DNA of 64,000 nucleotides, taken from positions 3,585,921 to 3,649,920 of the forward strand of contig NZ_KI912608.1 in NCBI RefSeq assembly GCF_000519265.1, written 5' to 3'. The notes below the pieces were generated by a model. It was given only the letters and a program-made list of their open reading frames with translations. It did not search any database and had not been told where the DNA came from. Position 1 is the stretch's first letter, and each line of letters starts with the position of its first letter. The position numbers and the translations under genes were made by a program. The DNA comes from Desulfonatronum lacustre DSM 10312. GTDB taxonomy: Bacteria; Desulfobacterota; Desulfovibrionia; Desulfovibrionales; Desulfonatronaceae. Shown piece after piece: positions 52,608 through 64,000 of this stretch.

Positions 52608-54023
52608 CTACTTACTCAGCAAGTCTCGAAGGGAGCGAAATCCCGGCTCGAAAGTCGGTCGGACAATGTGCCGCCCGCTACCCGGTTCGGCGTTGACGCG
52701 GCCTTCGCGCACCACTTCCCATCCAGCCAGATAAGTGGCCACGGGTGCGCCGCGAAAGGCCATGCCTTCGAACACGCTGTAGTCCACGGCGTGGTGATGA
52801 GTTTTGGCGCTGACCGTGTGTTCGGCCTGGGGATCCCAGAGCACGATGTCCGCGTCCGCGCCGGGAAGGATGCAGCCCTTGCCGGGATATATGTTGAACA
52901 GGCGGGCCGCGTTGGTGGAGGTTACGGCCACGAATTGTTCCGGCGTCAGACGGCCCTGGGCCACGCCGCCGTCCCAGATCACCCGCATCCGATCCTCCAG
53001 TCCCGGGGTGCCGCTGGGCAGCTTGGAGAAGTCGCGCAACCCGCCTTGGCGTTGGGCGTCGGTGAAGGCGCAGTTGTCGCTGGCCGTGACCTGGATGGCC
53101 CCGGTGGTCAGCCCGGTCCACAGGGCTTCGCGGTCCTCCTTGGGGCGAAACGGCGGGCTCATCACAAAGCGGGCCGCGGCCTGGGCGTCCTCCTGCTCGT
53201 AAACTGTCGCGTCCACGGCCAGATGGCCGCCCAGGCATTCCGCGAACACGGGCAAGCCGCGGGCCCGGGCCGCGATCACCGCGTCCAGGGCCTGGGCGCA
53301 GGAGAGGTGGACGATGTAAAGCGGCACGCTCGCGGCCTCGGCCACGGCAATGGCCCGCCACGTGGCGTCCGCCTCCCCGGACGCGGGATGGGAGATTGGG
53401 TGGCCCCTGGGGTGGGTTACTCCCTGGGCCAGGAGCTTGCGTTGCAGAAAGGGGATGATCTCGGCATTCTCGGCATGAACGGTGCACAGACAGCCCAGCT
53501 CCCCGGCCCGGGCGAAGCTGTCCGGCATCTGCTCCGGATCGAGCATCACCGTGCCCTTGTAGGCCATGTAGTGCTTGAAGGAATTGACCCCCCGCTCCCG
53601 GGCCAGCACGCCCATTTCCTGGGCAACACGCGCGTCGAACCAGGTCACGGCCACATGAAAGGAATAGTCGCAGGTGGCGCTGCGGGCCAATTTCATCCAG
53701 GCGTCATGAGCCTGGAGCAGGGATTGCCCCTGGCGGGGAATGACGAAGTCGATGATCGTGGTGGTCCCCCCGGCCAGGGCGGCCCGTCCGCCCTGTTCAA
53801 AATCGTCCGCGGTGCGGGTTCCGGCAATGGGCATGTCCAGATGGGTGTGCGGGTCGATGCCGCCGGGCAGGGCCAGCAGACCCTCGGCGTCCACGATCCG
53901 TGTTCCGGATGGAATGTCCAGATCACGGCCCACGGCGCGTATCTTTCCGTCGGAAACGAGGATGTCCGCCCTGGCGGAGTGGTCGGCGTTGACCACGGTG
54001 GCGCCTCGGATCATGATCTGCAT
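52608..54023 (-). CDS. Dihydropyrimidinase/D-hydantoinase-family hydrolase
   Basis: The 471-residue amidohydrolase opens cyclic amides such as hydantoins or dihydropyrimidines. It has GGIDPHTHLDMPIAG (metal ligands His59, His61), FKHYMAYKG where Lys150 is the position usually carbamylated, and TASDNCAFTD with the catalytic Asp. GGAGG four bases before ATG 54023 fixes the start. It is transcribed divergently from mocA, across 66 bp. In SDMH loci such genes (e.g. hyuA) are often found, consistent with purine-ring catabolism. Confidence 0.9.
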   Translation of the reverse strand: MQIMIRGATVVNADHSARADILVSDGKIRAVGRDLDIPSGTRIVDAEGLLALPGGIDPHTHLDMPIAGTRTADDFEQGGRAALAGGTTTIIDFVIPRQGQSLLQAHDAWMKLARSATCDYSFHVAVTWFDARVAQEMGVLARERGVNSFKHYMAYKGTVMLDPEQMPDSFARAGELGCLCTVHAENAEIIPFLQRKLLAQGVTHPRGHPISHPASGEADATWRAIAVAEAASVPLYIVHLSCAQALDAVIAARARGLPVFAECLGGHLAVDATVYEQEDAQAAARFVMSPPFRPKEDREALWTGLTTGAIQVTASDNCAFTDAQRQGGLRDFSKLPSGTPGLEDRMRVIWDGGVAQGRLTPEQFVAVTSTNAARLFNIYPGKGCILPGADADIVLWDPQAEHTVSAKTHHHAVDYSVFEGMAFRGAPVATYLAGWEVVREGRVNAEPGSGRHIVRPTFEPGFRSLRDLLSK

Positions 54024-54089
54024 GCTGCCTCCGTGCAAAAAGGTTGAGGGGTTAGAAATGAAATACGGTTGGGTTGGCAAGGATCACGA

Positions 54090-54746
54090 ATGTACAAATT
54101 AGCCGGCTTGATCCTGGCCGCCGGGGCCGGTCGGCGGATGGGCGGCGGGCTCGGGGGCAAGTTGTTGCTGCCGTACCGCGGCGAGCCGCTGGTTGTCCAT
54201 GTGGCGCGCAAGGCATTGGCGGTCTGCGATCCGGTGGTGGCGGTGACGGGTTGCAACGCGGAAGCTGTTGCACAGGTTCTGCGGGAGCAGGCTCCTGGAT
54301 TGCGCTTCGCCCATGCGCCGGATTGGCGCGCAGGCCAAGCCCGTTCGCTCCGGGCCGGACTGGAGTCGCTTGAGGGGGATATGGCAGCAGACATTGCCGG
54401 AGTCCTGGTTTTTCTGAGTGACCAACCTCTCGTGCGTATGGAGACGCTGGAAACTTTGGCCGCGTCTTTTCGTGATCACCCGGAAGATTTCGTCGCTCCG
54501 CGGTATCGCGGCAAGCGGGGCAACCCGGTTTGTATTCCACGGGCATGGTTCGCGCGGGTCATGGCCCTGGACGGAGATGTTGGAGCCCGGCCGCTTCTGG
54601 ATCATCCGGATGCGCGGTTACGCCTGGTGGACGTGGATGACTGCGGAGTGCTGCGGGACGTGGACACGGTCGAGGACTACCATGCGCTCATGAACTGTCG
54701 GGAATCAGTCGTCATCCAAGAAGCGCAGCCAGCCCTCCGTGACTGA
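54090..54746 (+). CDS. mocA: MocA-like molybdenum cofactor cytidylyltransferase
   Basis: The 218-residue nucleotidyltransferase has LILAAGAGRRMGGG (nucleotide-binding), FLSDQPLV, and RGKRGNPVCIPR. MocA attaches CMP to molybdopterin to make MCD, the cofactor form used by xanthine-dehydrogenase-family enzymes. AAGGA lies six bases before ATG 54090, favouring it over the upstream in-frame Met at 54069. Its 3' end overlaps yqeC by 42 bp, in convergent orientation. Confidence 0.9.
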   Translation: MYKLAGLILAAGAGRRMGGGLGGKLLLPYRGEPLVVHVARKALAVCDPVVAVTGCNAEAVAQVLREQAPGLRFAHAPDWRAGQARSLRAGLESLEGDMAADIAGVLVFLSDQPLVRMETLETLAASFRDHPEDFVAPRYRGKRGNPVCIPRAWFARVMALDGDVGARPLLDHPDARLRLVDVDDCGVLRDVDTVEDYHALMNCRESVVIQEAQPALRD

Positions 54747-55484
54747 CCCGGCGAACCACTCCGTCGCGGATATCGGGCCGTCCGGATGCGCGGCTTTGAC
54801 GAGTCGCCGGGCATGACGCAGCATGTCCCATGCAGCCTCACCGACTCTGTCCATCTTGTTTGCGAAGAAGATCCGCCGACAACGTAGCTGGACGTTCTTA
54901 AACAATCCCAGAGGATGCGCGACCAGATGGGCCAGAACGCGGGCGTCCAAGGAGTCCGTGGGGGGCATGTCGCAAAGCACGGCCAGCCGTTCGGGACGGA
55001 AGACATGCTCATTGACCAGGGACACACCCAGGGCATCCGCGCCAACAATTCCGATCACCAAATCCGTTGAGCGGGGAATCACGGGTTCGTGGTCCGCCGG
55101 GGCCTTGAGCGATTTGCCGCGTGCGCCGTCGGCTTCCACGAAAATCCGGTCCGCCAGCCCGGAAGCGGCCAGCAGGTCCACGGCCTCGGGCGTAAGGCCG
55201 AGGAGTTTGCCTGTGGCGGGGGCACGGTCCCGGGCCAATATCATGGACCGGCACCGGAAGAGGCGGGACTGGAGACGGGGTAGGGACGACTCCTGGCCGT
55301 CCCAGAAAACAGGGTATGCCATATTGGCGGCCAGTTTCGTCGTGGTGGTGAGGACAACGGTCTCGCCCGCGGCCACGGCATGGGCGGCCATGGCGGCCAT
55401 CAGGCTGGTCTTGCCGCCCGCGCCCACCAGAGCAACGAGCGTTGCGTCCGGTAGGTAGAATTCGGCCGGTACGTTTGGGATCAA
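54705..55484 (-). CDS. yqeC: YqeC-like selenium-dependent hydroxylase accessory protein
   Basis: From a TTG at 55484 the frame gives 259 residues. YqeC proteins are P-loop GTPase/ATPase-like maturation factors for selenium-dependent molybdenum hydroxylases. Here: [17 protein letters not shown] (Walker A-like), [22 protein letters not shown], and [11 protein letters not shown]. The TTG overlaps the stop of the iron-sulfur subunit gene (TTGA); no ATG/GTG start is nearby and no Shine-Dalgarno is clear. Its 3' end overlaps mocA. Confidence 0.88.
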
Positions 55485-55996
55485 GGTGGCGTGGATTCGG
55501 TGTGGTCGTGGGGCGTAGCGGGCTGGTCGAGAGATTGGCGCACGGCCTGGACAATAGTGTCGTAGCCCGTGCAACGGCAGAGGTTGCCGGCATGGGCTCG
55601 GCGGATGTCGTCCTGGGTGATATCTTCGGGATCGCGGCCTTGGTCGCGGCAGGATTCCACAAAAGCGGTGGTGGTCATGATCAGCCCGGGGGTGCAGAAT
55701 CCGCACTGCACGGCTCCGGCATCCACGTAGGCCTGCTGGACCGGGGAAAGATGGCCGTTTTTTACCTCTCCCTCCACGGTGCGGATGCGTTTGCCGTGAA
55801 CCCAGGTCGCCAGATAGAGGCAGGCGTTCACGGCCACGTCGTCCACCAGTACGGTGCAGGCTCCGCACTCGCCCACGCCGCAACCCTGCTTGACGCTGGT
55901 CAGGCCCTGGTCCCGAAGCAGGTCCAGGAGCGAGGAGCGGGGATCGATGGTCAGCTCGTAGGGGCGATCATTGATGGCGCAGGAGATGGTCAGCAT
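55481..55996 (-). CDS. Xanthine-dehydrogenase-family [2Fe-2S] subunit
   Basis: The 171-residue protein has two [2Fe-2S] sites: a plant-type ferredoxin cluster with Cys39, Cys44, Cys47 and Cys59 ([15 protein letters not shown]) and a helical one with CGFC (98-101) and CRC (140-142). It carries electrons from the Mo centre to the FAD subunit. It overlaps the FAD subunit gene by 7 bp upstream and yqeC by 4 bp downstream. Confidence 0.95.
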
Positions 55997-56934
55997 GTCC
56001 GGACCTCGCGGTGTTCGGCAACGTGGGTGATGAAGCGCTCCGCGGCGGTGCGGATCATTCGCCCGGCCAGGGTGCGGATGATGTGCATCCGGAAATCTCC
56101 CGCCGCCCGCCAGGAGGTGCGGGGGGAGACGTCCTGGTCCAGGGCCGCGAGGGCGGCCTGGACGGCTTCGTCCAGGGGCAGTCCTCGGGCCGCGGCTTCG
56201 GCGGCCGGGCAGCGCACCGGGGTGGGCGCGGCCACGGTGAAGGCCAGGCGCAGTTCGTCAACGATTCCCGTGCATCTCTCTGATTTTCCGTTTCCCTCGC
56301 TCTTGGCCGATTGTCCGTCTTGGATGCGAACGCCCGCGCCGCAGCCGATGGTGGCGATGTCCATGGCCTGGCGCATGGAATACTTGACGTAGGCCGTGCC
56401 CAGGTTTTGATCCGGTTCAGGCTTGATCCGCACCGAGCGCAGAATTTCCCCCTGCCGCAGCTCCACCCGGCCCGGGCCGAGATGAAACCCGCGCAGGGGG
56501 ATCAGCCGCTGGCCTTCCGGGCCGATCAGGTCCAGGTGGGCGTTGAGGACCAGAAGCGGGGCCGCGGAGTCCGCGCAGGCCGAGCCGTTGCAGATATTCC
56601 CGCCGATGGTGGCCGTGTTGCGGATCTGCGGTCCGGCCACCCAGCCCGCGGCCTCGATGAGCACAGGGGCTAGGCGGGCCACCAGTGGTGAGGCCATCAT
56701 CGTGGCGAAGGTCGTGCCCGAACCGATGCGCAGTTCGCCGTGTTCCTCGGTGATGCTGTCGAGTTCCGGCAGGCCGTGGATGTCCACGATGTCGGCGTAG
56801 TCCTTGTGCCCCTCCCGCAACCGGACCAGGATGTCCGTCCCCCCGGCCATGGGGCGGGCAAAAGGGTTCGCGGCCAGCAGTTCCACGGCCTCGGTCAGGC
56901 TTTGGGCGCGATGGTAGGATTCGAAGGCGTACAT
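55990..56934 (-). CDS. Xanthine-dehydrogenase-family FAD-binding subunit
   Basis: The 314-residue protein has the FAD-binding [18 protein letters not shown] and [19 protein letters not shown], which are typical of CO-dehydrogenase/XdhB flavin subunits. It also has [10 protein letters not shown]. It takes electrons from the iron-sulfur subunit and gives them to an external acceptor (NAD or ferredoxin). The gene lies 12 bp after the molybdenum subunit gene. Confidence 0.95.
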
Positions 56935-56946
56935 GGCGGATAGTCC

Positions 56947-59247
56947 TCAGCGCGGTCCCAGCAGCCCGGCGTCTCGGAACAGCGGGAACAGGGCCTTGGG
57001 GGTGAGGGGGATGAAGTCGGCCTTGACGCCGGTGGCGTCCCAGACCGCGTTGCGGATGGCCGGGCCGGGGGAGAGCAGGGGCGGTTCGCCCAGGGACTTG
57101 TTGCCGAAGCCCCCGGAGGGCTCGGCGGTCTGGACAAAGGCCACGTCCAGCTCGGGCAGGTCCGGGAAGGTGGGCATTTTATAGTCCAGGAGGTTGTTGT
57201 TGCGCACCCGGCCGGTGCGCGGGTCCACCAGCAATTCCTCGTACAGGGCCCAGCCGATGGCCATGGCCATGCCGCCCTGGGCCTGGCCCCTGGCCGTGAC
57301 GGGGTTGATAACCACGCCGCAGTCGTGGACGTTGAGCATGTCCGTGACCCGGACCCGGCAGAGCGGGATATCCACCTCCACTTCCACGAAGGTGCAGCCG
57401 AAGGAAGGCGCGTTGCTCCGGGTTTTGACCGAGCGCTCCGCGGTGAGTTGGCCGCCCCGTTCCTTGTGGTAGTAGGCGTCCAGGGCCAACTCGTTCAGGC
57501 TCATGAAGACCCGCGAGGGCTGGCGGGCCGCGACCACGAAGCCAGCCTCCAGGGCCAGGGCCGGAGCAGGATACCCGGTCATCAGCGCGGCATGGTCCAG
57601 GATTTTTGCGCGCAGTTCCAGGGCCGCGGCCTTGACCGCCGGACCGACGACGTAGGTCTGGCGGGAGGCGAAAGCCCCCGGGTCAAAAGGAGTCACGTTC
57701 GTGTCCTGGGTGGAGACCACGCGCACGGAAGTCATGGGCAAGTCCAGGACCGATGCAGCCATTTGGGCAAAAACCGTGTCCGCGCCCTGGCCGATTTCCG
57801 TGGCCCCGGCCTGGAGCGTCACGCAGCCGTCCTGGGCCAAGGTCAGGCGGACCCCGGAAATCTCCACGCCCACGGGATAGACCCCGGAATTGAAACTGAA
57901 GCAGGCCACGCCCACGCCGCGTGGTTTTTCGGGATCAGCTTGCTTGGTCCGAGAGGCCTGGGCTGCGGCCCGGCGCTCGTCCCAGTTGAATCGCTCCCGA
58001 CCCAGGCGCAGGCAATCGGCCAGACCGTGGGTTTCGATGGGTTTGCCGGAGCGAGGATTGACGTCCCCGGGGCGTCCGGCATTGATCAGGCGCAGGTCCA
58101 GTGGGTCCATGTCCAGAACCCTGGCCGCTTCCTCCAGCAGGCATTCGCAGGCAAAGATGATCTGGGGCGAGCCGTAGCCGCGCATGGCTCCGGCAATGGG
58201 CAGGTTGGTGTAGACCGTGGCCGCCTGGAAGCGGACTCCGGCGTGGGGATACATGCTGCACAGCTTGCCCCCGCCCGCGGAGACCACGGAATGGCCGTGG
58301 GAGGCATAGCCCCCGGTGTTGGACACGGCGTCCATGTCCATGGCCAGCAGCCGCCCGTCCCGGGAAAAGCCCGCCTTGGCCCGGATGCGCATGGCATGGC
58401 GGGTGCGGGTGATCATGCTTTCCTCACGGGTCAGGGCCATGCGTACCGGTCGGCCCAGCTTCCAGGCCAGGAAGGCGACCATGGGCTCCAGGAGCACATC
58501 CTGCTTGGCCCCGAATCCCCCACCCACATAGGGCTTGACGATCCGCACCCGACTCCAGTCCAGGCCCAGGGCCTGGCCCACCACCCGGCGGCAGATGTGC
58601 GGAATCTGGGTGGAGGTGATCACGGTGATCCGCTCCATGTCCTCCATGTAGGCGTGGGCCACCACGGGTTCCATGTGGCAGTGCTGGGTCACCGGGGTCT
58701 GGTACTCGCCCTCCACCACCACGTCGGCCTGGGCAAGGAGAGCATCCACGTCTCCGCCGACGCTGAACCCGTCCTGCTTGACGATGTTGCCGCCGGGGTG
58801 GATGGCCGGAGCCCCGTGGGCCATGGCCTCCCGGGGATCGGTGAGCACCGGGAATTCTTCGTAGGACACCGCGACCAGGCTCGCGGCGCGTTGGGCCGTA
58901 AGCTCGTCCCGGGCCACCACCACGCCGATCTCGTCACCATGAAAGCGGACATGCTCGGTGAGCAGCAGGCGGTCGGCCACGTCGGCATGGGCCGGATCAA
59001 GGGAGAAGGGATGGCCAGCCGGGGCGTAGGGCAGTCTGGGCACGTCGGCGAACGTGAACACGGCCTCCACGCCGGGCAGGGCCAGGGCCGCCGAAACGTC
59101 CATGGTCAGAACACGGCCATGGGCCACGGTGCTCCGGATATACACGGCCGAGAGTATGCCCGCGGGGAGCATATCCTCGGTGTACCGGGCCCGGCCCGTG
59201 ACCTTGGCCTCGGCGTCCAGACGCTTGACGGGTTGTCCGATGCTCAT
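56947..59247 (-). CDS. Xanthine-dehydrogenase-family molybdenum subunit (SDMH type)
   Basis: The 766-residue catalytic subunit binds molybdopterin cytosine dinucleotide. It has GRARYTEDMLPAGILSAVYI, QHCHMEPVVAHAY, the Moco-binding VGGGFGAKQD, and an active-site Glu region GATEIGQGADTVF. Neighbouring YqeB, YqeC and MocA identify it as a selenium-dependent molybdenum hydroxylase, in which a labile selenium may sit on the Mo. The likely substrate is xanthine, nicotinate or another purine-like ring; which one cannot be read from sequence. No in-frame Sec codon is needed. Confidence 0.93.
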   Translation of the reverse strand: MSIGQPVKRLDAEAKVTGRARYTEDMLPAGILSAVYIRSTVAHGRVLTMDVSAALALPGVEAVFTFADVPRLPYAPAGHPFSLDPAHADVADRLLLTEHVRFHGDEIGVVVARDELTAQRAASLVAVSYEEFPVLTDPREAMAHGAPAIHPGGNIVKQDGFSVGGDVDALLAQADVVVEGEYQTPVTQHCHMEPVVAHAYMEDMERITVITSTQIPHICRRVVGQALGLDWSRVRIVKPYVGGGFGAKQDVLLEPMVAFLAWKLGRPVRMALTREESMITRTRHAMRIRAKAGFSRDGRLLAMDMDAVSNTGGYASHGHSVVSAGGGKLCSMYPHAGVRFQAATVYTNLPIAGAMRGYGSPQIIFACECLLEEAARVLDMDPLDLRLINAGRPGDVNPRSGKPIETHGLADCLRLGRERFNWDERRAAAQASRTKQADPEKPRGVGVACFSFNSGVYPVGVEISGVRLTLAQDGCVTLQAGATEIGQGADTVFAQMAASVLDLPMTSVRVVSTQDTNVTPFDPGAFASRQTYVVGPAVKAAALELRAKILDHAALMTGYPAPALALEAGFVVAARQPSRVFMSLNELALDAYYHKERGGQLTAERSVKTRSNAPSFGCTFVEVEVDIPLCRVRVTDMLNVHDCGVVINPVTARGQAQGGMAMAIGWALYEELLVDPRTGRVRNNNLLDYKMPTFPDLPELDVAFVQTAEPSGGFGNKSLGEPPLLSPGPAIRNAVWDATGVKADFIPLTPKALFPLFRDAGLLGPR

Positions 59248-60200
59248 CCGGTTCTCCCGAGATGGATGGGTAGGGGTGATGGTTCAGGATGGGACTTCGG
59301 CGGGGTCTGGCCCAAATCAGGCTCAAGGCGAGGCTCAAGCCCGGGAACGGTCCCGGCCCGGAGGCCGTCCAGATGGGCGCGAACAGCCCGCAACACGCCT
59401 TGGCCCACGGCCCGCGCCTTGTCCGAGACGCGGCGGCAACGCCATGTTTCGCCCCTGGGGTCCACGTCCCCCAGTTTCAGGCCTTTTTCGACCACGACGC
59501 CGGAGCGCAACAGTCCGCGAATCACCCCGGAAGTCAGAGCCGTCACCGGGGCGACGGTCCCGTGCGCGTCCACTTGGCCCACGGTCTCCCCTTCTTGGAC
59601 CATGTCGCCGATGGTCCGGCAGGCTGTAAAGACGCCGTCCATGGGCGCACGCAAAAGCCGCTCCAGAGACTTGCCCAGCACTGGACCCGGAATGCCGGTG
59701 TTCGGAAAGGCCGAGCCGGTGGAGCGGATCTCGCCGAGACCTTGACCGCGATGGGTTTCCACCACGCAGTGCACATCCTTCCCAGCGGTGAAACCCGGCC
59801 CCAGCCCGATGACCAGAGGAGCCATGTCGCGATGGACCCCAGTATTGCGCTTGGCTATCAGGGCGTCGACTAAGACATGGGGGAGAAGTTGGGGCTGAAG
59901 CTGCTTCAGGCAGGTCATGTCCGGGTCGACGAGAACCGGAATCTCTCCCTTGGTCCAGGCCGACGTCGCTTGGTCCAAGGCGTCGATCCGCACCGCCCCA
60001 ATCCCTTCCACGTCGACCCGGCCCTCGTGGACCGCCTCGGAAAACGCCACCAGCCGCCGTACGGCCAGCGGCCGCGCGCGTTCCAGCAACAGCAGACGCC
60101 TCAGCCCGGCCTCGTAGAGTTCCAAGGCGACGCCCGTGGCCAGGTCTCCGGCTCCGCGGATGAGGATGGAAGGGGTAGCTGGTATATTGGATGGGGGCAT
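59244..60200 (-). CDS. yqeB: YqeB/EF2563-family SDMH maturation protein
   Basis: The 318-residue protein belongs to the YqeB family found only with selenium-dependent molybdenum hydroxylases. It shows IRGAGDLATGVALELYEAG (Rossmann-like), LLLERARPLAVRRLVAFSEAVHEGR, VLVDPD, and VDALIAKRN. It is thought to help insert selenium into the Mo centre; the mechanism is unproven. The stop overlaps the Mo subunit gene start (ATGA). 42 bp separate it from the nucleotidyltransferase gene. Confidence 0.93.
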   Translation of the reverse strand: MPPSNIPATPSILIRGAGDLATGVALELYEAGLRRLLLLERARPLAVRRLVAFSEAVHEGRVDVEGIGAVRIDALDQATSAWTKGEIPVLVDPDMTCLKQLQPQLLPHVLVDALIAKRNTGVHRDMAPLVIGLGPGFTAGKDVHCVVETHRGQGLGEIRSTGSAFPNTGIPGPVLGKSLERLLRAPMDGVFTACRTIGDMVQEGETVGQVDAHGTVAPVTALTSGVIRGLLRSGVVVEKGLKLGDVDPRGETWRCRRVSDKARAVGQGVLRAVRAHLDGLRAGTVPGLEPRLEPDLGQTPPKSHPEPSPLPIHLGRTG

Positions 60201-60242: not shown

Positions 60243-60566
60243 TTATACAGTAATCTGGACGCCTTCGCGACGCGCGCATTCAATAATGGTGCTTTCATCA
60301 TCCGTCTTCCAGCGGTTCAACCCAACGGGCAGCGGTTCAATCCGACTGTCCGTCCGCGCGGCTGTTCGCCAAAGCAGATTGATGTCTTCTCGGCTGTAGG
60401 GCGTGTCGTAGGCCGGAGATACGACAAGTAGGTCAATGTCGCTCCAGCGATGAAAATCATTGCGGGCACGGGAGCCGTACATGACCCCGAAGCAGACTGG
60501 GATGCCGAGGCGAATCAGTTCTGTCAGGTAGTTTTTTACGGCAATTTGAGTTGATTCTTCAGGCAT
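60243..60566 (-). CDS. MNT-type nucleotidyltransferase
   Basis: The 107-residue minimal nucleotidyltransferase has the diagnostic GSRARNDFHRWSDIDLLV (GS...DxD). In HEPN/MNT toxin-antitoxin pairs this domain is the antitoxin, which AMPylates its partner HEPN toxin. ATG 60566 is chosen; a TTG at 60575 is possible. It overlaps a 55-residue upstream ORF by 8 bp, which could be its partner, although that ORF is smaller than a typical HEPN protein. Confidence 0.85.
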   Translation of the reverse strand: MPEESTQIAVKNYLTELIRLGIPVCFGVMYGSRARNDFHRWSDIDLLVVSPAYDTPYSREDINLLWRTAARTDSRIEPLPVGLNRWKTDDESTIIECARREGVQITV

Positions 60567-60726
60567 GAGGCTCAAGATGTTCCTCGTAAACTTCCAACAT
60601 ATCCCCCAGTACCTCTATCAGTGCAGAGAGTGGGTGATCAGCATCATCGCGGACGATGTCGAGAAGATGATGCAGCAGGCAAGTTGCCTGCTGGTATGTC
60701 AGCCCTGAAGAGTGTTCATTTTCCAT
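60559..60726 (-). CDS. Small 55-residue partner of the nucleotidyltransferase
   Basis: This short ORF reads MENEHSSGLTYQQATC, then LLHHLLDIVRDDADHPLS, and finishes EVYEEHLEPHA. It is helical, acidic and His-rich. It begins one base after the ygfK stop and overlaps the nucleotidyltransferase start by 8 bp, so the pair is translationally coupled. I do not recognise its family. A truncated HEPN helix is conceivable but HEPN's RxxxxH motif is not present. Confidence 0.6.
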   Translation of the reverse strand: MENEHSSGLTYQQATCLLHHLLDIVRDDADHPLSALIEVLGDMLEVYEEHLEPHA

Positions 60727-60727
60727 T

Positions 60728-63463
60728 TTAAAGTATCCCCAACGGCGACCTCATGGTCATTGTGAACAGCAATCCCGCCTCCATGGCTGGTCCAAGGTCG
60801 ACCAGGTTCGAATTCGGGGGCAGGTCGGCGCTGGTGGGTTCCAGGGTATCCGGGTTGAGAGTGAGGGTCAAAGATTTGCTTTCGTAGCGCAGGCCCTGGT
60901 GGGTGCGGGTCAGGCTGGCCGGGGTGCCGTGATGCAGGATTTCCATGTGGTCCGGGGTGGCCGGGAAATAGCCGTTCTGTTCGTCCTCGAAGCCGGCCCT
61001 GGTCAGGTGAATGCGCGGCTTGTCGCTGAAGGGCGCTCCGGAGGAGGGGCAGAAGGTGGCGCAGTTGCCGCAGGTGTTGCAGACGTCGGCCAGGATCACG
61101 ATCTGGGTGCAGTCGGTCAGGGGGCGGTTTGCCGTGATGCGGAGGGCGGGCTTGCCGTCCGGGTCGCGGTGGACTTCCCCCCTGGCAATGGGGCCGAGGA
61201 AGGGCGGCAGGGCCAGGATGGCCCGGTTGGGGCAGACCGTGACGCAGATTTCGCACAGGCTGTCGCAGCGCAGGCAGCGGGCGGCCTCCAGGGGCATGGC
61301 TTCGTCGTCGGTGACTTTACGAGACCCGGAGTCAGGGTCGGCATAAGGGCCGAAATCGCGGATGTGACGGGCCGAGCGCAACGCCGAAATGTCGGCCTCG
61401 GGGCGAGATGGCCTGTCCGCGGGTTGTGGAGGCAAGTCTTGGGATCGCAGATAGGCTTTTGCGGCCTCGCGGCCCAATGCTACGGCCCTGGGCAGGCTGC
61501 CGGGGCCGGTGGGCAGGGGGCCGTCAAAGGTGATGACGTGGTCGCTCTTCGGCTGGTCCTGGGTTGCACCGTCAATGACAACTAGAGTTCCGTATCGCGT
61601 CCCGTTTTGAGAGGCGCTTAGGCTCAAGGCTCTCAGGTCAGCGAGATCCGTAAGCAGGGCGCGTTTGGCTGGCGAGGCTCCCTCTGCTTGGAGGGCATTC
61701 TCCGGTACGAGCAGGGTCACGTCCACCCCGGCCTGGATCAGGGTCCCGGCGCAGCTTACGCTCCGGGCATCCAGGCCATGCACGACCACGGAGGCGGTGT
61801 TTTCGGCGTTGCTCGTTGCTTGTGGTTGGTCAGGCGAACTGGAGTCAGGCCCTCCCAGACGGGCCGCCGCGGCCTTGGCCTCCCGGATGCGCAAGGGCGT
61901 ATCCAGGTTGCCCCGTGTGCAGCGCTTGCGGCACAGGGCGTCGCAGGCCAAGCCCAGGTGGTGGGCCGGAGCATTGGTAGCCCGGATGGTGGCCAGCGCG
62001 GCCGTGGGCCTGTTTTGCGCCAAGTGGCCCAGGTAGGCCGGAATATCCTGGCTGGCGGCGCAGGCCGCCCTGCAGGGAGCGGTGAAGCAGTCCAGGCGGG
62101 GCAGGGGGCGGGGGATTTTGACGTCCGCGTGGGTCTTGGCCGTTTTGGCGTAGCGTCGGGCTGTGGCCGTGGCTTGAGCGTAGGCGGCCAAACCCGGGCC
62201 TTGGGCCTGCCACTTCTCCAGGCTTTCGGCTCCGGCGGCGGCCATCCGCTCTTTGAGGACGTCCATGTATTGGCGGAGACGACCATACCCCCCGGGTTTG
62301 AGCAGGTCGCTGCACGAGGTCACCGGCCCCAGCCCGGCGGCCAACAGATCCGGAATGTTGAAGGCGTCGGCCCCGGCGCAGAAGGACATGGGCGGACAGC
62401 CTTCGGACTGCTCTGGCCCGGAGTCCTGTTGCTCTCCCAAGTGTTCACGCAGCAGCAGGGCCACGTGTACGGCCAGGGGGTGCAGGGGGCGGCCGCTGCA
62501 ATAGACCTGCTGTTCCGCCTCGGGCAGGGCTGAGCGGTTCACGCAGGGCAGGGTGTTGGTCAGCTTCAGGTTGAACTCCACGCCCCGCTTGCGGGCCGCG
62601 GCGGACAGGGTGCGGATGATGGGCAGGGCCTGATCCAGGGACAGGTCATTGGCGAAAACTGCATCCGGCACCTCCATATCCCAGCCCAGGCCCTGGAGCA
62701 GGGCGCGGACCCGCTCCGGCCCGAGCAGGGTGGGGTTGAGCTTCAAGGTGGTGTGCAGCCCTCGGTCCTCGATAAAATGCAGGGCAATGCGTTGGATTTC
62801 GTCCGGGGGGCAGCCGTGCATGGTGGAGATGGTCAGGCTGGTGCTGACCCCGTCGGGCAGGTCCACCCAGGCCAGTTCGGGGCAGACGCGGGACAAGCGC
62901 GTCGCGGCCTCGGCCATGTCCTCCGGACAGTGGGTCATGCGGTCCAAAAAGCGGGTCATGGCCGGACTGGTGATCCCGGCCAGGTCGTACCCGGCGCTCA
63001 TGTTCAGGATGAATCCCGGGTCGCGTCCGTCCCCGCCGGCGGGAAAATTCATTTTACGGCGCAGGGCCAGGATCAGCAGCAGGCCGTTCAGGTACTCATC
63101 AAAGGACTGCTCCAGCTTGAGTTCCTGCGACCACTCGCAGTTGTAGCCCTCGTCGCGCATGTCGATGCACGGTCTGGCCAGGGTCAGTTCGTCCAGGATC
63201 TGGACGGTCTTCAGTTCCAGATATCGCCCCCCGCACAGCCAGGCTGCCACCAGGTTGCGGGCCAACTGGGTATGCGGTCCGGCTGCCGCGCCGATGGGCG
63301 TTTCCAGGCGCTGGCCGTAGCGGGTCGTGGTGAAGGGGTCATCCGGGCCTGGCTGGAAAAAACAGGCCTTGGGTATGCCCAGGATCTGCCCATGCTTGAG
63401 TTCGTCGAGCAGGGAAGCCAGAAGTTTGTCGTGAGGGATGGGATGGAAGCGGTCCATGGTCAT
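60728..63463 (-). CDS. ygfK: YgfK-like iron-sulfur protein with reduced FAD/NAD module
   Basis: From the ATG at 63463 this 911-residue protein starts like YgfK (putative selenate reductase subunit): HPIPHDKLLASLLDELKHG, then a dihydroorotate-dehydrogenase-like barrel (ETPIGAAAGPHTQLARNL, GYNCEWSQELKLEQS). It continues with GltD-type cysteines (CFTAPCRAACAAS, CDALCRKRC) and two ferredoxin-like groups (CLRCDSLCEICVTVC, CNTCGNCATFC). In E. coli a roughly 350-residue FAD/NADPH module lies between these. Here only about 150 residues remain, and no GxGxxG nucleotide site is visible. A GTG at 63475 is an alternative start. Confidence 0.85.
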   Translation of the reverse strand: MTMDRFHPIPHDKLLASLLDELKHGQILGIPKACFFQPGPDDPFTTTRYGQRLETPIGAAAGPHTQLARNLVAAWLCGGRYLELKTVQILDELTLARPCIDMRDEGYNCEWSQELKLEQSFDEYLNGLLLILALRRKMNFPAGGDGRDPGFILNMSAGYDLAGITSPAMTRFLDRMTHCPEDMAEAATRLSRVCPELAWVDLPDGVSTSLTISTMHGCPPDEIQRIALHFIEDRGLHTTLKLNPTLLGPERVRALLQGLGWDMEVPDAVFANDLSLDQALPIIRTLSAAARKRGVEFNLKLTNTLPCVNRSALPEAEQQVYCSGRPLHPLAVHVALLLREHLGEQQDSGPEQSEGCPPMSFCAGADAFNIPDLLAAGLGPVTSCSDLLKPGGYGRLRQYMDVLKERMAAAGAESLEKWQAQGPGLAAYAQATATARRYAKTAKTHADVKIPRPLPRLDCFTAPCRAACAASQDIPAYLGHLAQNRPTAALATIRATNAPAHHLGLACDALCRKRCTRGNLDTPLRIREAKAAAARLGGPDSSSPDQPQATSNAENTASVVVHGLDARSVSCAGTLIQAGVDVTLLVPENALQAEGASPAKRALLTDLADLRALSLSASQNGTRYGTLVVIDGATQDQPKSDHVITFDGPLPTGPGSLPRAVALGREAAKAYLRSQDLPPQPADRPSRPEADISALRSARHIRDFGPYADPDSGSRKVTDDEAMPLEAARCLRCDSLCEICVTVCPNRAILALPPFLGPIARGEVHRDPDGKPALRITANRPLTDCTQIVILADVCNTCGNCATFCPSSGAPFSDKPRIHLTRAGFEDEQNGYFPATPDHMEILHHGTPASLTRTHQGLRYESKSLTLTLNPDTLEPTSADLPPNSNLVDLGPAMEAGLLFTMTMRSPLGIL

Positions 63464-63503
63464 TTCTTGATTCACCTACTCGGCTGGTAAAAGCTCTTTT
63501 GGG

Positions 63504-63707
63504 TCATTGCAACAGATCGTCAAAGGAAAGCTCGGCGTCTCTCAGGATTTTCCTCAACAGGCCTTTTCCGACATCCTGACAGGAATGAGAAGGGACTGTT
63601 ACCGTGCGTCCATCCTGGTGACGCAGTCGGACATGGCTGCCACGCTGGCGGACAGTCAAAAAACCTTGCCTTTTCAGCGCCTTGAGAACCTCTTTAGATG
63701 TAAGCAT
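63504..63707 (-). CDS. hicA: HicA-family mRNA interferase toxin
   Basis: The 67-residue toxin has a dsRNA-binding-like fold with the conserved His in RQRGSHVRLRHQDGR and then TVTVPSHSCQDVGKGLLRKIL. HicA cleaves mRNA unless HicB is bound. Its ATG at 63707 overlaps the hicB stop; a TTG at 63725 would add six residues. Gene order on the transcript is hicB then hicA. 40 bp separate it from ygfK. Confidence 0.9.
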   Translation of the reverse strand: MLTSKEVLKALKRQGFLTVRQRGSHVRLRHQDGRTVTVPSHSCQDVGKGLLRKILRDAELSFDDLLQ

Positions 63708-63921
63708 GGGAAGGTTCGTAATCAATGCTCACCTTTTGGACTCCAATGAACTCGTTTTGCGAGTAGGGTTCTTCAATGCACATCTCTATGACTTCCCGGA
63801 TGTTACGCAGCATCTCTTCCATGGTTCTTCCCTGCGCGTAACAGGCTTGCAAGCTGGGGACTTCACCGACAAAAAAGCCGTCCTCATCCTTCTCGACCAC
63901 GACGAAAAAGTCCTTGGCCAT
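63694..63921 (-). CDS. hicB: HicB-family antitoxin
   Basis: The 75-residue antitoxin has an RNase H-like fold: FFVVVEKDEDGFFVGEVPSLQACYAQGRTMEEML. GGAGG five bases before ATG 63921 fixes the start; a GTG 12 bases upstream is weaker. It neutralises HicA and may repress its own operon. No separate DNA-binding tail is evident, unlike longer HicB proteins. Nothing is recognised between 63934 and the end of the window. Confidence 0.88.
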   Translation of the reverse strand: MAKDFFVVVEKDEDGFFVGEVPSLQACYAQGRTMEEMLRNIREVIEMCIEEPYSQNEFIGVQKVSIDYEPSHAYI

Positions 63922-64000
63922 GTGTTCCTCCACCTTCAGATCTTATTGTTCAGAGATATTCCACGCCTGTGACGTTTACTCTCGAGGCGTCCATGTTCAG

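Follow-up and report, generated by a model that had tools for sequence, protein, structure and literature searches.

The anaerobic breakdown of uric acid was elucidated only in 2025. In the anaerobic pathway of E. coli, XdhD-YgfM reduces urate to yanthine, and YgfK, a flavin enzyme, acts as an NAD(P)H-dependent yanthine reductase whose activity is detectable only when coupled to SsnA (PMC12507026). The reductant types named so far are NADH (YgfK), ferredoxin (UacX), and F420 (PMC12507026). UacX of Clostridioides difficile has no FAD domain, and ferredoxin has been proposed as its donor (PMC12507026). A biochemical precedent is provided by PydAc, the uracil reductase of Clostridium chromiireducens, which is without the FAD and NADPH domains, keeps both ferredoxin domains, and has been shown to use reduced ferredoxin (PMC7332683).

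Here, we analyzed a YgfK homologue in a 64,000-nucleotide stretch of DNA from Desulfonatronum lacustre DSM 10312; this whole stretch is referred to as the window. A preliminary description of the gene had suggested that its product lost the FAD/NAD(P)H domain, retained all cysteine clusters, and might exchange electrons with ferredoxin or another partner instead of NADPH.

An uninterrupted gene with an eroded FAD/NAD(P)H module

An open reading frame scan placed the gene at positions 60728..63475 of the minus strand, encoding 915 amino acids from a GTG start at 63475 and interrupted by neither a stop nor a frameshift. Alternative ATG starts are found at 63463 and 63457, the latter corresponding to the conserved MDRF start. 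The YgfK model TIGR03315 matched the protein with an E-value of 2e-165 and 552 bits, below its cut-off of 835 bits. The main match ended at model position 567 of 1012 and was followed only by two short C-terminal pieces (model positions 810–905 and 911–963), indicating that the intervening region is missing from the protein. In a Pfam search, Fer4_20 and Fer4 were present, while neither Pyr_redox_2 nor the DHO_dh barrel PF01180 gave a match at E<1, the latter despite a fold resembling DHODH.

Four parts could be delimited, all on the minus strand. A DHODH-like (FMN-type) barrel domain spans residues 8–455 (62111..63454), as judged from the structure model, fold matches, and kept alignment columns. 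It is followed by the Fer4_20 domain, the N-terminal Fe-S domain of the GltD/DPD type, at residues 461–540 (61856..62095; PF14691, E=1.4e-9) with six invariant cysteines, and by the eroded FAD/NAD(P)H module, of which only a remnant is left, at residues 562–680 (61436..61792), located by alignment and structure model. Finally, the alignment placed a C-terminal two-cluster ferredoxin region with nine invariant cysteines at residues 733–812 (61040..61279).

As a measure of module length, we counted the residues between the last Fer4_20 cysteine and the RCxxC motif and found 211 in the window protein, compared with 383 in E. coli YgfK and 359–403 in all 21 of the long forms. The claimed loss of the module thus held, while the reduction from roughly 350 to about 150 residues was somewhat overestimated: approximately 170–190 residues are gone. 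Where long forms have the fingerprint VxVIGAGPxGL, the remnant reads VVVHGLDARSVSCAG, in agreement with the claim that a GxGxxG fingerprint is absent. Alignment with the 1,032-residue E. coli YgfK and homologues from clostridia shows VHGLDARSV in the place of VIGAGPAGL, and the alignment with YgfK homologues revealed no GxGxxG, NADPH motif GxGNxAMD, or VYRRT..MPA in the window protein. The first beta-alpha-beta unit of the FAD domain, a short middle part, and the last helix can still be traced, whereas the NAD(P)H domain is missing. The short YgfK proteins are very probably unable to use NAD(P)H.

The Fe-S clusters show the opposite pattern. All 15 conserved cysteines (positions 463, 468, 472, 511, 515, 519, 734, 737, 741, 744, 748, 799, 802, 805, and 809 of the window protein) are invariant across an alignment of 42 YgfK sequences, bearing out the claim that the clusters remain. 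To quantify the erosion, we took the alignment columns invariant in 21 long forms and checked them in the window genus. The barrel kept 71 of 80 such columns, Fer4_20 kept 20 of 22, and the C-terminal ferredoxin region kept 23 of 24, compared with 7 of 41 in the FAD/NAD(P)H module. The erosion singles out the NAD(P)H module and leaves the barrel and the clusters in place. The SGG motif of the barrel reads CAG in the window protein, as it does in some long forms.

Loss of the module could have inactivated the enzyme and left a decaying gene. The dN/dS of the remnant in short forms (0.26–0.43) is elevated over the value of about 0.1 for the same region in long forms, as expected under that explanation. 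However, the barrel shows a dN/dS of 0.13–0.18, the reading frames are intact in 12 genomes, most columns of the catalytic domain and all cysteine columns are kept, and the gene has been retained in genomes of 1.4 Mb. We consider decay very improbable; the remnant is under relaxed yet real constraint.

The structure check suggested in the preliminary description succeeded for one part of the protein only. The AlphaFold2 model of the window protein had a mean pLDDT of 66, with a good barrel (mostly 75–95), while the remnant was poorly modelled as a few strands and helices with pLDDT of about 40–64. The best PDB fold matches were DHODH barrels and DPD. A control model of the long form at locus L047, built from the same 42 sequences, reached a pLDDT of 88, and its top hits were Nfn/Stn, DPD, and glutamate synthase, matched in their GltD-type modules with E-values down to 3e-35. 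The alignment behind the models contains only two short forms, and the low pLDDT of the remnant partly reflects this depth; the contrast between the two models supports the loss of the module, without proving the absence of flavin.

Distribution and phylogeny of the short form

We searched 297 genomes of the order and 288 genomes of the family f5 for the short form. It is carried by five species of the window genus and, in three further genera of this order, by seven genomes, in total 12 genomes from four genera, and the module spans 178–231 residues in these compared with 359–403 in the long forms. Whether other sulfate reducers share the form had been asked in the preliminary description; other Desulfovibrionales do. 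Within the family f5, YgfK was found in 12 genomes, 7 with the short and 5 with the long form. The short forms tested scored 552–661 bits against TIGR03315 (607–661 for those other than the window protein), below the cut-off, which was exceeded by the long forms tested from this phylum (851–906). Similarly, these long forms had complete Pyr_redox_2 matches, and the other short forms tested had fragmentary ones or none. Outside the phylum, the NADPH motif was found in nearly all of the 79 YgfK loci listed; the two exceptions (L084 and L116) both keep the FAD fingerprint, and one of these reading frames ends at a contig end.

The gap or frameshift error that had been named as the alternative to a real loss was not found. 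The short form of about 910–919 amino acids recurs in four further genomes of the window genus (G001, G003, G004, and G005) with 73–86% identity, which excludes a local assembly error; the five species agree on its length and boundaries, no internal stop is present, and short forms of other genera include one from a single-contig genome (G503). The probability of a sequencing or assembly artefact is negligible. YgfK without the NAD(P)H module is a conserved variant of a known enzyme and is apparently undescribed; the open-access literature, seen largely at the level of abstracts, yielded no description of such a form.

Two features, an insert that separates the two C-terminal cluster motifs and an extension at the C-terminus, were considered as hallmarks of the short form and rejected, as the long forms of the phylum carry both. 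Across loci L147–L163, they are common to long and short YgfK of the Desulfobacterota type, whereas YgfK of E. coli and clostridia lacks them. Among the genomes with a short YgfK, three of genus g10 (G503, G536, and G489) are only 1.4–1.6 Mb in size and keep a near-complete urate cluster, which suggests that they live in association with a host and that urate is important to them there.

A tree inferred from the barrel and Fe-S columns placed the long and short YgfK of the Desulfobacterota type in one clade with support of 100/100. Within it, the long forms cluster together (98/98), and the base consists of three short lineages in unresolved order. Multiple independent losses of the module could not be established, since a single clade of all short forms passed the topology test (p-AU 0.48). 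The window genus sits on a long branch of 0.97 changes per column, and its substrate may thus have changed. In Desulfobacterota, long forms are found in the genera g264 and g268 and in four genomes elsewhere in the phylum.

The forms can be ordered by their degree of erosion. The module is complete in g264 and g268; in g10 and g292, the NAD(P)H domain is gone and the GxGxxG fingerprint kept; in g276, the fingerprint is partly degraded, retaining GSGxxG without the acidic residue or GG; and in the window genus, GxGxxG, the acidic residue, and GG are all lost. It is conceivable, if on balance doubtful, that these grades of Desulfovibrionales YgfK record the ongoing conversion of a ring reductase from NAD(P)H to ferredoxin dependence, with the remnant perhaps serving as a docking surface for the new donor and the change perhaps having occurred repeatedly.

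The urate gene cluster and the candidate electron donor

The gene lies in a urate cluster. On the minus strand, it is followed by YqeB, a protein for selenium-dependent Mo cofactor maturation (59244..60200; TIGR03309, 308 bits, cut-off 220), and by the Mo, FAD, and 2Fe-2S subunits of xanthine dehydrogenase: XdhA (56947..59247; NF043082, 1146 bits, cut-off 780), XdhB (55990..56934; NF043083, 342 bits, cut-off 310), and XdhC (55481..55996; NF043084, 222 bits, cut-off 217). Further along the same strand are the selenium cofactor protein YqeC (54705..55883; TIGR03172, 162 bits, cut-off 73), whose real start is probably downstream of the listed one, judging from a domain match that begins at residue 150, and HyuA, a hydantoinase/dihydropyrimidinase for the ring-opening step (52608..54080; TIGR02033, 549 bits, cut-off 393). 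A MocA/YgfJ-like cytidylyltransferase is encoded on the plus strand (54069..54746; TIGR03310, 145 bits, under the cut-off of 186). Just outside the window, the same genome encodes Se_dep_XDH, over its own cut-off, and an SsnA reading frame, of which a close homologue in G004 was best matched by SsnA models with scores below their cut-offs; a CysK-like PLP enzyme is encoded further out.

Every complete YgfK locus checked is near SsnA and mostly accompanied by HyuA, YgeW, YgeY, and Mo-hydroxylase genes. The other genomes with the short form contain near-complete urate clusters, including the single-contig and 1.4-Mb genomes, and across the other loci the pathway is often complete. In the window genome, YgeY and YgeW occur together at a second locus, both over their cut-offs (L168:9631-15301; G000:C1:2595000-2614900); this locus adjoins genes resembling a TRAP transporter. 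No protein of the window genome exceeded the family cut-off for YgeX, the diaminopropionate ammonia-lyase, for which one of the PLP enzymes near the urate cluster may therefore stand in. These cysteine-synthase-like and threonine-synthase-like enzymes are encoded at L125:5650-7131, immediately to the right of the window, and at L120:395-1708. The small reading frames on either side of ygfK (window positions 60243-60575 and about 63504-63933) resemble a nucleotidyltransferase (MNT-type, with a weak HalB match) and, by eye, a HicA/HicB toxin-antitoxin pair; in G005, no nucleotidyltransferase was called between ygfK and yqeB.

The preliminary description had spoken of a variant SDMH electron chain. 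This wording was not upheld: YgfK does not carry electrons for the selenium-dependent hydroxylase but, in E. coli, reduces yanthine itself in an SsnA-coupled reaction (PMC12507026), and the neighbourhood here is that of the urate pathway. The protein should rather be read as the ring-reducing enzyme of urate catabolism.

By analogy with known enzymes, we consider it likely, with a probability of roughly 0.65, that the short YgfK is a yanthine reductase that receives its electrons from ferredoxin or from another Fe-S protein of similarly low potential, its NAD(P)H input having been deleted. Yanthine (2,8-dioxopurine) would be reduced and de-aromatised at FMN in the DHODH-like barrel as a step of the anaerobic reductive uric-acid pathway, with both substrate and FMN occupancy being predictions; SsnA would trap the product, and HyuA would open the ring further. 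As the module has no NAD(P)H domain and the clusters are kept, the electrons probably come from ferredoxin. With the input from NAD(P)H to FAD deleted, they would enter directly at the Fe-S clusters, through Fer4_20, the C-terminal ferredoxin domain, or both, and the precedent of PydAc makes such direct input the best explanation. The donor would be of the kind shown for PydAc and proposed for UacX; of the earlier proposal, a donor of this kind is the best-supported consequence, while ferredoxin itself is a candidate by analogy. Against this reading, no ferredoxin or reductase gene adjoins ygfK in the window genus.

The distribution of XdhD-YgfM, the urate reductase bearing an FAD subunit, is suggestive in this respect: it was found in none of the 12 short-form genomes and in 6 of the 9 long-form genomes (Fisher p=0.0015, computed over relatives that are not independent). 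Its absence would fit a ferredoxin-fed pathway but is confounded by kinship, and XdhD-YgfM is also missing from three long-form genera. Glu606 of E. coli XdhD was considered as a marker of urate reductases; it sits in an insert that Se_dep_XDH lacks, and so does not identify the enzyme here.

The module might alternatively have moved to a stand-alone oxidoreductase that supplies NAD(P)H electrons in trans, as PreT serves PreA. As a separate gene beside ygfK, it was sought and not found in the window genus, and only genus g276 offers a candidate: a GltD-like stand-alone protein of the PRK12770 family (358 amino acids) beside an AegA/YgfT-like 4Fe-4S ferredoxin (164 amino acids), near the urate cluster (L169:1538-3105 in G528 and L170:10350-12106 in G561). 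The pair directly adjoins ygeY in G528, but in G561 it is separated from the cluster. A homologue of the GltD-like protein is present in all five genomes of the window genus (in the window genome at G000:C1:600287-601294, with 49% identity), yet the window-genome copy is unlinked to ygfK, two long-form genomes also have a homologue, and the short-form genera g10 and g292 have no close one. The g276 pair is a possible trans donor for the short YgfK or for another enzyme of the pathway, and the possibility of a trans donor is strongest in that genus; as a general explanation we think it unlikely.

Electrons could also be given by a partner docking on the remnant, such as the FAD-less Se_dep_XDH, instead of free ferredoxin. 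Such a role would accord with the remnant being retained under purifying selection instead of deleted, and Se_dep_XDH is encoded close to ygfK both in the window genome and in the short-form genomes from the three remaining genera. Several long-form genomes contain Se_dep_XDH as well, however, making it unspecific to the short form, and we consider this explanation quite unlikely.

Comparison with known systems

Annotation as YgfK implies the use of NAD(P)H and is very probably misleading for the short forms. These would join the NADH, ferredoxin, and F420 types (PMC12507026) as a further route, one derived from YgfK. The short forms also provide a natural series of intermediates in the loss and replacement of a GltD-type module; the mechanism is well precedented, and the presence of both forms in one family makes the switch of donor directly testable.

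The window protein shares with E. coli YgfK the barrel, Fer4_20, the C-terminal two-cluster ferredoxin region, the adjacency to ssnA, and the context of Mo-hydroxylase and hyuA genes. It differs in having a remnant of the module and a score below the TIGR03315 cut-off, whereas in the E. coli enzyme the module is complete and NAD(P)H serves as reductant (PMC12507026). Full-length YgfK has the combination of Fer4_20 and FAD/NAD(P)H module in common with pig DPD, Nfn, and GltD, which the long-form control model matches best, while the fold matches of the short form are led by DHODH barrels. UacX likewise catalyzes the yanthine-reducing step of a urate cluster without an FAD domain and with ferredoxin as the proposed donor, but it is a PydA-type (PF01180) replacement of YgfK, whereas the window protein descends from YgfK and lost its module by erosion. 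PydAc, finally, is also an FMN-barrel reductase of an aromatic ring from a strict anaerobe, with the FAD and NADPH domains absent and both Fe-S domains kept. It differs in belonging to the PydA/DPD family, in acting on uracil, and in having two eight-cysteine ferredoxin domains, and the use of ferredoxin, shown for PydAc, is predicted for the short YgfK.
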